38,328 nucleotides of DNA. It comes from an uncultured Clostridia bacterium. Its GTDB lineage: Bacteria; Bacillota; Clostridia; TANB77; CAG-508. The number at the start of each line of letters is the position of its first letter. Position 1 is the stretch's first letter. The position numbers were made by a program, and so were the translations under genes. Positions 7,667-16,943 of the stretch are shown in pieces. The notes below the pieces were generated by a model, which saw only the letters and a program-made list of their open reading frames with translations, searched no databases and had not been told where the DNA came from. Where the stretch lies: assembly GCA_947625545.1 (NCBI GenBank), contig CANQOW010000004.1:1-38328 (forward strand), given 5' to 3'.

Positions 7667-7693
7667 TTAGCACTCTCTACTTGACACTGCTAA
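7667..7693. promoter_or_regulatory. CIRCE-like HrcA operator upstream of clpB
   Basis: TTAGCACTC-tctacttga-CACTGCTAA versus CIRCE consensus TTAGCACTC-N9-GAGTGCTAA: perfect left arm, 7/9 right arm, N9 spacer. Confidence 0.7.
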
Positions 7694-7709
7694 AAAATAG
7701 ATATATAAT
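7681..7709 (+). promoter_or_regulatory. sigma-70/sigmaA promoter of clpB overlapping the CIRCE-like site
   Basis: TTGACA (7681-7686) N17 TATAAT (7704-7709). Confidence 0.85.
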
Positions 7710-7768
7710 TAAGAATGCAGATATATTATATATAAATTAGGTAAATAATATAATAGGAGGTAAAAAAA

Positions 7769-10354
7769 ATGAATACACAAAAATTAACACAAAAATCAGT
7801 TGAAGTAATTCAAAATGCTCAAAGTATAGCGAGCGAAAATAATAATCAACAAATAGAACAACTCCACATTTTATATGCTTTACTTACTATACAAGATAGT
7901 TTAATAAAACAAATATTTAATAAAATGCACATATCAGACCAATTTGAAAATCAAGTATTAAAAGAAATAGAAAAATTACCTAAAGTTACAGGTTCAAGAG
8001 AAATAGATAAAATGTATGTAACTCAAGATGTGGAAGATATGTTAGTAGAGAGTGAAAAAATTGCTAAAAATATGAAAGACGATTATGTATCTGTTGAGCA
8101 TTTAATGTTATCTTTATTTGATAAAGCAAATTCTAAAATTAAAGAATTATTTAGAGTTTTCAATATTAATAAAGATGAATTTATTAAAATTTTAGCAGAC
8201 ATTAGGGGAGGTGTAAATGTTAAAACAGATAATCCAGAAGAAACATATAATGTTTTAGAAAAATATGGCTTAGATTTAGTAGAATTAGCAAAGAAACAAA
8301 AATTAGACCCAGTAATAGGTAGAGATGATGAAATTAGAAATGTTATACGAATTTTATCTAGAAAAACCAAAAATAATCCTTGTTTAATAGGTGAACCGGG
8401 AGTAGGTAAAACCGCGATTGCTGAAGGTCTTGCTTTAAGAATTGTAAGGGGAGATGTCCCAGATGCTCTTAAAAATTGTACAATTTTTTCATTAGATATG
8501 GGTGCATTAGTTGCTGGTGCTAAATATAGAGGTGAATTTGAAGAAAGATTAAAAGCAGTTTTACAAGAAATTAAAAAAAGTGAAGGCAGAATAATATTAT
8601 TTATAGATGAACTTCATACAATCGTAGGTGCTGGTAAAACAGAGGGTGCTATGGATGCAGGAAATTTATTAAAGCCAATGCTTGCAAGAGGAGAATTACA
8701 CTGCATAGGTGCAACTACATTAAATGAATATAGAAAATATATTGAAAAAGATCCAGCATTAGAAAGACGTTTTCAACATGTAATGGTAGATGAACCTAGT
8801 GTTGAAGATACAATATCAATATTAAGAGGTTTAAAAGAAAAATATGAAGTTTATCATGGAGTACAAATTAGTGATAATGCAATAATTGCTGCAGCAACAC
8901 TTTCACATAGATATATTTCAGATAGATTTTTACCAGATAAAGCAATAGATTTAATTGATGAGGCTTGTTCTATGATTAAAACGGAGATGGAATCTATGCC
9001 TATTGAATTAGATGAAATTGCACATAAAATTACCCAACTTCAAATAGAAGAAACTGCTTTAAAAAAAGAAAAAGATGAATTATCTATAAAAAAATTAGAA
9101 GAAATAAAAAAAGAAATTGCAGAAATGCAAACAAAATTTAATGAAATGAAAGCAAAATGGGATAATGAAAAAGATGCTATTTCTAAAGTTCAAAAATTAC
9201 GTGAAGAATTAGAAAAAGTAAATGCTGAAATAGAAATGGCAGAAAGAAATTATGACTTAAATAAGGCAGCAGAATTAAAATATGGTAAATTACCACAACT
9301 TCAAAGCGAATTACAAAAAGAAGAAGAAATTGCAAATAAATCTAAGGAAAATAGTTTATTAAGAACTAAAGTTACTGATGAAGAAATTACAAAAATTATT
9401 GCAAAATGGACAGGCATTCCAGTTTCAAAACTTATGGAAAGTGAAAGAGAAAAAATTTTAAATTTAGGTAGTATTTTGCATAAAAGAGTTATAGGACAAG
9501 ATGATGCAGTTACTAAAGTTACAGAAGCAATAATTCGTTCAAGAGCGGGAATACAAGACCCAAATCGCCCAATAGGTTCTTTTATGTTTTTAGGACCAAC
9601 AGGCGTTGGAAAAACAGAACTTGCTAAAGCATTAGCAGAAGCATTATTTGATGATGAGAATAATATGATTAGAATAGATATGTCTGAATATATGGAGAAA
9701 TATTCTGTTTCTAGATTAATTGGAGCTCCTCCGGGCTATGTTGGATATGAAGAAGGTGGACAATTAACAGAAGCGGTTAGAAGAAAACCATATTCTGTTA
9801 TATTATTTGATGAAATAGAAAAAGCACATCCAGATGTTTTTAATGTATTGTTACAAGTCTTAGATGATGGAAGAATTACAGATTCACAAGGAAGAACAGT
9901 AGATTTTAAAAACACTATTATTATACTTACTTCTAATTTAGGTTCTGATATTATTTTAGAAGGTATAGATAAAGATGGAAATATTTCTGTTGAAGCGGAA
10001 GAAGAAGTTAATAATTTATTAAAACGAAATTTTAGACCAGAGTTTTTAAATCGTTTAAGTGAAATTATTTTGTATAAACCTCTAAAAAAAGATGAAATAA
10101 AAAATATACTTGATTTATTAATTTTGGATTTAAACAAAAGACTTTCAGATAAGCAAATTACAATTGAGTTAACTCCAAAAGCAAAAGAATATTTAATTGA
10201 TAATGGATATGATGCTGTATATGGTGCAAGACCATTAAAAAGATTTGTTCAAAAGAAGTTGGAAACTTTAGTTGCTATAAAAATTCTTGATCAAACTATA
10301 CTTCCAAAATCAAAAATTAAAGTTGATTTTGATGGTAGTAATTTAGTTATTTAA
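7769..10354 (+). CDS. clpB: ATP-dependent chaperone ClpB
   Basis: 861 aa; two AAA+ modules (GEPGVGKTAIAEGLA, GPTGVGKTELAKALAEALF), middle domain, GAPPGYVGYEEGGQLTEAVRRKPYSVILFDEIEKAHPDVFN. Confidence 0.97.
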   Translation: MNTQKLTQKSVEVIQNAQSIASENNNQQIEQLHILYALLTIQDSLIKQIFNKMHISDQFENQVLKEIEKLPKVTGSREIDKMYVTQDVEDMLVESEKIAKNMKDDYVSVEHLMLSLFDKANSKIKELFRVFNINKDEFIKILADIRGGVNVKTDNPEETYNVLEKYGLDLVELAKKQKLDPVIGRDDEIRNVIRILSRKTKNNPCLIGEPGVGKTAIAEGLALRIVRGDVPDALKNCTIFSLDMGALVAGAKYRGEFEERLKAVLQEIKKSEGRIILFIDELHTIVGAGKTEGAMDAGNLLKPMLARGELHCIGATTLNEYRKYIEKDPALERRFQHVMVDEPSVEDTISILRGLKEKYEVYHGVQISDNAIIAAATLSHRYISDRFLPDKAIDLIDEACSMIKTEMESMPIELDEIAHKITQLQIEETALKKEKDELSIKKLEEIKKEIAEMQTKFNEMKAKWDNEKDAISKVQKLREELEKVNAEIEMAERNYDLNKAAELKYGKLPQLQSELQKEEEIANKSKENSLLRTKVTDEEITKIIAKWTGIPVSKLMESEREKILNLGSILHKRVIGQDDAVTKVTEAIIRSRAGIQDPNRPIGSFMFLGPTGVGKTELAKALAEALFDDENNMIRIDMSEYMEKYSVSRLIGAPPGYVGYEEGGQLTEAVRRKPYSVILFDEIEKAHPDVFNVLLQVLDDGRITDSQGRTVDFKNTIIILTSNLGSDIILEGIDKDGNISVEAEEEVNNLLKRNFRPEFLNRLSEIILYKPLKKDEIKNILDLLILDLNKRLSDKQITIELTPKAKEYLIDNGYDAVYGARPLKRFVQKKLETLVAIKILDQTILPKSKIKVDFDGSNLVI

Positions 10355-15794: not shown

Positions 15795-15844
15795 CATTTG
15801 TTGTATAAAAATAAACTGTTTTTCATAAAATATAAATATAATTA

Positions 15845-15873
15845 TTGACATTTATTTGTATAAATGTTATAAT
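15845..15873 (+). promoter_or_regulatory. perfect-consensus sigmaA promoter driving an intergenic ncRNA
   Basis: TTGACA (15845-15850), 17-nt spacer, TATAAT (15868-15873). Confidence 0.85.
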
Positions 15874-15879
15874 TATTTT

Positions 15880-15997
15880 ACCAAAAGAATTAAATTCTTT
15901 GTTCGGTCGATAGCTAGAAACTGATTTTTAAAAATTAAGCGTATGTTAAGTACGTCAGTCTAGTTGGGAAAAGGTTACTTAAAAGTAGCCTTTTTTC
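15880..15997 (+). ncRNA. structured small RNA convergent with a DUF3800 gene (candidate DUF3800-associated RNA)
   Basis: Starts ~7 nt after TATAAT; AAAGAAUU/AAUUCUUU hairpin (15884-15900); AGCUAG (15912-15917)/CUAGUU (15960-15965) helix; CUG/CAG helix (15921-15923/15956-15958); GCGUA-N7-UACGU hairpin (15939-15955); ends in intrinsic terminator; no sizeable ORF. Confidence 0.7.
15969..15997 (+). terminator. intrinsic terminator of the ncRNA
   Basis: aaaaggttacttaaaagtagcctttttt: GGTTACTT/AAGTAGCC-type stem followed by T6. Confidence 0.85.
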
Positions 15998-16003
15998 TTT
16001 TTG

Positions 16004-16762
16004 TTATGGCAAAAATATTTTATAATTTACGAATTCAATTTTTTTAGAAAAACTTGTTATATCATTTATATTATTCAAATAAAATTTTCTAACAGTTCCT
16101 GCTACTAAATCAGAAGCTTGAATTAAATAACTTTTTTCAGATTTTTGATAACAAACATTAACTTCTAAATCAGAGTTTACTATAGGAGATTTTATAGAAC
16201 TATAATTATAATTAAAAATACCATATTTTAATTCTTCAATTATACCATCTTTTAAATTATAATATCCATTGGTTTTTGTTGTTTGTTCATCAATATTTAA
16301 AACCAATTTTATAGGTAAATCGGGATTTATACGATTTTCTTTAATTAAACACTTTATTGTGTGTTTAATTAATAATTTTAAAGAATAATCTAAAAATCTA
16401 CCTCTTGATGCTGTATCATTTTTTATATTAGGATAAACTTTATCATTATTAATTATGCAACAAAGAATAGAATATTTTTTTATATAATTCATTAATTGTC
16501 TATTATGTTTAGGTTTTAACATATTATGTTTTAATTCTGGACAACATTTATTATTAGAACATATAGAAATATCTTTATTGCAATATTTACACTTTATACT
16601 TTCAGTAATACTTCTATATTGTGTTATAAATTTATCTTTTTCTTTTTTTGAAGTAAATACCAGACCAGCATAAACAGAAACTTTTTCACTATTTACTAAT
16701 TTACCTGAATCATCAATATTTATATATATTGTTTGTTCTGTATTATTTTTATCAAATTCCAT
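16004..16762 (-). CDS. DUF3800 family protein
   Basis: N-terminal TIYINIDDSGKLVNSEKVSVYAGLVF and C-terminal SEKSYLIQASDLVAGTVRKFY match DUF3800 (RNase H-like) motifs; start at 16762 (MEFDKNNTEQ) has an agaaagga RBS. Confidence 0.8.
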   Translation of the reverse strand: MEFDKNNTEQTIYINIDDSGKLVNSEKVSVYAGLVFTSKKEKDKFITQYRSITESIKCKYCNKDISICSNNKCCPELKHNMLKPKHNRQLMNYIKKYSILCCIINNDKVYPNIKNDTASRGRFLDYSLKLLIKHTIKCLIKENRINPDLPIKLVLNIDEQTTKTNGYYNLKDGIIEELKYGIFNYNYSSIKSPIVNSDLEVNVCYQKSEKSYLIQASDLVAGTVRKFYLNNINDITSFSKKIEFVNYKIFLP

Positions 16763-16943
16763 AGGCAATTTCCTTTCTAAAAAATTAATGAAATTATTAT
16801 AACATAATAAAAAGAAAATTGTAAACATAAAAAGAGAGAAATTTTAAAACGCATACTTGAAAATAAAAAGTAATATGATATAATAATGAAAATAGAATAT
16901 AACTATAATCTATTTTTATATATAAGAAAATAAGGTGATAAAT

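Follow-up and report, generated by a model that had tools for sequence, protein, structure and literature searches.

The window, a stretch of 38,328 nucleotides from an uncultured Clostridia bacterium, harbors between its rsmA and dapF genes a two-gene cassette in which a structured RNA of the Rfam family DUF3800-I is paired with the gene for a DUF3800 protein with a predicted RNase-HII-like nuclease fold. We consider it somewhat more probable than otherwise that the cassette is a type III-like toxin-antitoxin or abortive-infection module with an RNA-inhibited nuclease, a proposal that draws on sequence comparison, structure modelling and analogy. The sequence-only reading of this DNA had described a DUF3800-linked structured RNA that might act as a ribonucleoprotein or as a toxin-antitoxin or defence-like unit. 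The linkage was borne out, with the pair behaving as one unit, and the suggested function is the reading to which the comparisons given here lend the best support. No function for DUF3800-linked RNAs was found in the open-access papers searched.

Structure of the inserted cassette

The cassette occupies positions 15795..16851, with ends that are approximate to a few nt, and was delimited by an empty site in a congener. In that genome (locus L032) rsmA and dapF are 104 bp apart and the flanking DNA is 77-82% identical to that of the window, which has ~1.05 kb extra between the two genes; the intact empty site agrees with the insertion that had been proposed from the sequence. On the forward strand a perfect TTGACA-N17-TATAAT promoter is present as claimed earlier (15845..15873); the A/T-rich, UP-like sequence ahead of it (about 15822-15844) is kept in relatives. 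Perfect promoters of this type occur twice in the 38-kb window as compared to 0.03 expected in shuffled sequences. The other copy (7681-7709, within 7672-7769) lies 5' of a ClpB-type gene at 7769 and overlaps a CIRCE-like repeat (TTAGCACTC-N9-CACTGCTAA), which looks like ordinary HrcA-type heat-shock control.

The RNA (15873..16003, forward strand; predicted transcript about 15880-16001) matches the Rfam model RF02969 over its full length (model positions 1-115 of 115) with 62.2 bits and E 2.3e-7. The possibility of a new RNA class was rejected because this match is well over the gathering score of 44.2; the RNA is DUF3800-I, a member of a catalogued family, with which it shares the full-length match, the consensus structure and an adjoining DUF3800 gene. 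Its score is lower than that of the tandem-type members (74-107 bits), in which the RNA lies upstream of the gene and is co-directional with it, whereas in the clade of the window the RNA is convergent with, and 3' of, a DUF3800 gene with a Cys4 insert. According to the Rfam alignment, the 5' hairpin P1 (15880..15907) is followed by helices P2 (15911-15917/15960-15966) and P3 (15920-15923/15956-15959), which close a three-way junction (span 15911..15966) holding P4 (15924-15926/15933-15935) and P5 (15939-15944/15950-15955). The CUAG, CAG and GCGUA helices recognised in the sequence-only reading correspond to P2, P3 and P5, and the region folds more stably than shuffled versions (z = -3.0, 1/200).

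The structure was compared across 25 relatives from the same order. In four helices 96.5% of the cells are paired (97.8% in P1, with both-side changes in 3 pairs), the covariation score is 0.41 as compared to 0.22 in shuffled alignments, and compensatory changes were found in 9 pairs over P2, P3 and P5. Structures with slid partners reduce pairing to 34-45% (maximum 44.7%), a margin that is partly expected since the structure was taken from the Rfam match, the alignment itself being made with MAFFT without structure. The stronger measure is the number of both-side changes, 83 as compared to 28.8 in shuffles, although relatedness of the sequences inflates it.

An intrinsic terminator (15966..16003, forward strand) consists of a stem at 15966-15997, the sole one detected in 2.5 kb, and a T tract reaching the stop codon of the DUF3800 gene. 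This stop codon (16004-16006) starts 7 nt past the stem, in agreement with the spacing reported earlier. The gene itself (16004..16762, minus strand) encodes a polypeptide of 252 amino acids, for which the ATG at 16762 is a likelier start than the longest-ORF start at 16828; its likely promoter, assigned by consensus match only, is a TTTACA-18-TATAAT sequence (16796..16825, minus strand, 11/12). That it is a DUF3800 gene, as first read, is supported by a match to PF12686 (E = 1.7e-10), the sole family over the cut-off. A comparison with PADLOC-DB gave no match for the window protein and scattered weak matches only among 96 relatives.

An AlphaFold2 model built with 96 sequences has a pLDDT of 87.7 and a pTM of 0.85, as compared to a pLDDT of 34 from the single sequence. 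The leading PDB matches in Foldseek are all RNase HII (best 1eke, E 5e-6), with modest TM-scores of 0.4-0.5, and from this model an RNase-HII-like nuclease fold is predicted. The protein shares with RNase HII, besides the predicted fold, two features of its acidic residues: strand 1 carries an Asp-[Asp/Glu]-x-Gly motif, and strand 4 is followed by an Asp. It differs in that sequence similarity is not significant: profile-profile comparison with RNase HII gave a probability of 2%, and a PDB sequence search with the DUF3800 profile returned chance matches only. Candidate catalytic residues, chosen by conservation, are D17-D18 in the Asp-[Asp/Glu]-Ser-Gly motif of strand 1 (codons 16709..16714), E76 (16535-16537), D158 (16289-16291) and D218 (16109-16111), all on the minus strand. 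In alignment A5, D17 is present in 94/94 sequences and position 18 is always D or E, and E76, K78, D158 and D218 are conserved in 96/96. Unlike RNase HII, the protein has the invariant E76-x-K78 and an extra Cys4 zinc-ribbon-like insert (residues 52-75, 16538..16609, minus strand), and its final Asp seems to sit at a displaced position on its helix. Most proteins of the convergent type have the insert, and none of the sampled tandem-type proteins does. For another DUF3800 protein, a published study describes an AlphaFold2 model with an RNase H fold and catalytic rearrangement (PMC10910872).

Linkage, layout and mobility of the RNA-gene pair

A protein scan yielded 112 DUF3800 loci (80 genome-wide and 32 viral), which were searched for the RNA with our own covariance model R1 and with Rfam. 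The RNA was detected at 103 of them. The other nine comprise two loci split by insertions (L132, L196), three at contig ends (L165, L212, L237), three near-copies of L223 that fell outside the Rfam scan (L224-L226) and a nonsense-bearing gene (L207); among those of the 112 loci with adequate, fully scanned flanks, no intact DUF3800 gene lacks the RNA. A survey of the order found the RNA at 24/24 evaluable DUF3800 genes. The RNA is present beside every evaluable homologue, so the outcome that the sequence-only reading had named as refuting it, close DUF3800 homologues with no conserved RNA at their side, was not observed. An independent sRNA that adjoins DUF3800 by chance could have its own promoter and terminator, as observed, but it is a highly improbable explanation of 103 linked loci that span Bacillota, Mycoplasmatota and one Pseudomonadota genome and in which the subtypes are matched: neither RNA subtype, A or B, was found with the protein subtype of the other.

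The layout varies, with 69 convergent loci of the window type and 34 in which the RNA is upstream and co-directional. Streptococcus phage Javan110 has a third arrangement, DUF3800 followed by a co-directional downstream RNA, and a DUF3800-like gene at L030 (810-1617) with a weak, co-directional DUF3800-I match of 37 bits downstream is probably a further example; the genome of L030, G235, also carries a B-type RNA. The position of the RNA promoter is conserved, the -10 element starting at offset -5 in 64/67 convergent and 31/34 tandem loci, and the promoter matches at least 11 of 12 consensus positions in 48/67 convergent loci as compared to 9/3000 random positions. Among convergent relatives the 3' end of the RNA usually runs into the final codon of the gene or its stop (offset -3 in most of the 69). 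Tandem loci have the order promoter-RNA-terminator-ORF, and where the start codon could be placed it lies 2-21 nt from the RNA end, which leaves no room for a second promoter. At two loci the partners are separated by inserted genes and both are intact: L169 (3776-5192) has a pair that reads as HigB/HigA-like, and L148 an uncharacterised ORF between convergent DUF3800 and RNA.

These layouts bear on the idea that the RNA regulates DUF3800 in cis, as an attenuator, an antisense RNA or by transcriptional interference, without binding the protein. The terminator between promoter and ORF in tandem loci would suit such control, as would the collision of convergent transcripts at their 3' ends, but the same RNA fold occurs in three relative orientations, which disfavours a cis-regulatory role, the convergent overlap is just a few nt, and orphan RNAs persist (see below). 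In the protein tree, for which the bootstrap is not fully settled, convergent and tandem types are split by one 100/100 branch, which also argues that the linkage is not cis-regulatory. We regard regulation in cis as improbable; the sequence evidence points to a protein-linked RNA with orientation-independent linkage rather than a cis-regulator.

The distances between RNAs and between proteins are correlated, with a Mantel r of 0.87 overall, 0.84 within the convergent and 0.53 within the tandem type (0/999 permutations each). In these sequence comparisons the correlation is as co-inheritance predicts and does not by itself show binding. A diverged convergent module in G031 (L198/L126) has a DUF3800 protein without the Cys4 insert. 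Its RNA was missed by Rfam at E<0.01 and detected by model R1 at 60.7 bits, so RF02969 under-detects part of the DUF3800-I family.

In elements from differing contexts the common DNA is confined to roughly -75 to +1000 as counted from the RNA, and cassettes in unrelated surroundings are alike only from the RNA promoter region through that of the DUF3800 gene. The cassettes of G024 and G304 are 93.6% identical over 1084 bp in unrelated contexts, the RNA occurs sporadically in the order (27/388 genomes), and one rho-linked site has the A type in G190 and the B type in G161 and G235. Modules are also carried by prophages, a satellite phage and plasmids. On these comparisons the promoter-RNA-terminator-DUF3800 unit is a small mobile two-gene cassette. 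The clean empty site in the congener, the near-identical ~1.08-kb cassettes in unrelated contexts and the sporadic distribution would also suit self-mobilisation, with the RNA and the RNase-H-fold protein together moving the ~1-kb cassette as a minimal selfish element or homing element. Inspection by eye, however, found no convincing terminal repeats or target duplications and no consistent target, there is as a rule one copy per genome, and carriage as cargo by phages, the satellite and plasmids explains the movement without self-mobility; we find self-mobilisation quite improbable.

The satellite phage is Streptococcus Javan632 (MK448589; L253, 9299-10123), where a tandem module lies close to the right end, as accessory cargo typically does. 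At L094 (G235; RNA 8878-9003) a sequence resembling the 5' end of a group II intron (GTGCGACAGGC...) directly follows the T-run of the RNA terminator. This suggests a group II intron-like insertion at the terminator, which would explain the contig break. In L095/L105 (G292) and L096 (G017) the RNA and DUF3800 are separated by a hairpin-ended insert (ATATAGtAAAAATCG...ACAAGGTTAAGTTACC) that adjoins the RNA terminator.

Orphan RNAs and the proposed mechanism

RNAs without a DUF3800 gene were found in three genomes of the order, G377, G095 and G219, of which G095 has kept a C-terminal DUF3800 remnant. A further orphan RNA lies at a prophage edge near lysis genes (G605), and viral examples are L243, L252 and the single element represented by L242 and L248. 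In L252 the reading frame ends a few codons past the point from which the DUF3800 sequence runs on in the related L247. The orphan RNAs are well folded, and those of the order score 98-119 bits with R1, overlapping the paired RNAs. At L062, L145, L189 and L238 the DUF3800 gene is broken next to an intact RNA. The RNA in G403 has a contig end near its 5' side and was for that reason left out as ambiguous. The reverse case, an intact DUF3800 gene without RNA, was not encountered in adequately, fully scanned flanks. In the order survey 3/28 RNAs and 0/24 DUF3800 genes are orphans, numbers that are too few for significance; the samples are modest and overlapping and come mostly from MAGs, in which frameshifts may be assembly errors. 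Orphan RNAs and broken DUF3800 genes without the reverse case fit an antidote better than a cofactor.

In IMG/VR, the A-type RNA pattern gave no match and the B-type pattern three matches, none with a DUF3800-I match. In the prophage element L242/L248 the orphan tandem-type RNA is directly 5' of SocA/Panacea-like and MazF/PemK-like genes, names that come from reading the sequence, as if another toxin-antitoxin system had replaced DUF3800.

Taken together, the obligate pairing, co-divergence, nuclease-like fold, orphan asymmetry and carriage by phages and plasmids make an antitoxin module the most likely reading of the sequences and the model. The RNA would be transcribed constitutively and would bind the DUF3800 protein directly, holding the nuclease inactive. 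If transcription stopped, for example upon phage takeover, or if the cassette was lost, the RNA would decay sooner than the protein, and the freed nuclease could then cut RNA, or the RNA in RNA-DNA hybrids, and cause cell arrest. In the tandem clade, read-through of the RNA terminator seems to be the only route of transcription into the putative toxin gene, as in ToxIN. The convergent clade has separate promoters, and the near-consensus promoter would set the dose of RNA.

The lack of RNA-less DUF3800 genes would be predicted equally if the RNA were a required cofactor. RNAs of the OMEGA and CRISPR systems act as cofactors for their own nucleases, and the DUF3800-I RNA might likewise activate or guide its partner to cut invading nucleic acid. 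Obligate pairing, co-divergence and the RNase-H-like fold are compatible with this, and two published reports place DUF3800 proteins with Cas12a2 and in some type VI-F loci (PMC10910872, PMC12669027). A non-exhaustive test, however, found no guide-like hypervariable single-stranded stretch, which disfavours a guide role: the variable unpaired columns lie mainly in the P1 apical loop and at scattered junction or loop positions, and other bases in the loops do not vary. Nor would an activator be expected to leave structured orphan RNAs whose promoters are intact. We consider an RNA-activated or RNA-guided nuclease unlikely and retain the RNA-inhibited nuclease as the favoured reading.

More tentatively, DUF3800-I modules may represent a new abortive-infection family in which an RNA antitoxin is joined to an RNase-HII-like toxin that has no relation to ToxN, and the prophage orphan RNAs may serve as antidotes that weaken these modules, much like the pseudo-ToxI of phage PhiTE (PMC3475682). 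With more than 100 relatives compared, the DUF3800-I RNA looks like an antidote against a possibly toxic nuclease, a reading that makes the role of DUF3800-linked RNAs directly testable. Should the RNA prove to be an antitoxin, DUF3800-I would be the second motif family, after abiF, to be explained as RNA-inhibited abortive infection; the toxin fold would be a different one, and there would be a candidate activity for the DUF3800 accessory proteins of Cas12a2 and VI-F loci.

Relation to known systems

Operons of type III toxin-antitoxin systems have the order RNA, terminator, toxin ORF (PMC5086642). The tandem clade of DUF3800-I has the same layout as ToxIN, CptIN and TenpIN, and both groups combine a structured RNA with a nuclease, a predicted one in the case of DUF3800. 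Unlike in those systems, the DUF3800-I RNA is a single unit without repeats, the window protein has no match to the ToxN, CptN or TenpN families, with only PF12686 over the cut-off, and the one-promoter operon is found only in the tandem clade, the window having convergent genes with two promoters. For these reasons we do not file the unit as a member of the type III systems.

The accessory proteins of Cas12a2 (V-A2) and VI-F loci belong to the same Pfam family and have an RNase H fold according to the sections of the two reports considered here (PMC10910872, PMC12669027). As described there, the Cas12a2 accessory protein is TPR-fused and the Cas12a2 and VI-F proteins are CRISPR-linked, and those sections make no mention of a DUF3800-I RNA.

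The closest tested precedent for the DUF3800-I module is AbiF/RCd22 of C. difficile. RCd22, a non-coding RNA of the abiF motif (RF03085) in a prophage lysis module, binds and neutralises its toxic neighbour AbiF (PMC12373285). Both systems have a motif-class RNA with its own terminator beside a single protein gene, and both are carried by prophages, often at the lysis module in the case of AbiF/RCd22 (PMC12373285). The protein (Abi_2) and the RNA are unrelated to those of the DUF3800-I module, and RCd22 differs from the window RNA in having two motif copies and in lying upstream of AbiF. The RCd22 RNA is a protein-binding antitoxin (PMC12373285), and the DUF3800-I RNA may have the same role. 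This precedent, the type III-like layout of the tandem clade and the lack of a guide-like segment lead us to favour an RNA-inhibited over an RNA-dependent nuclease.
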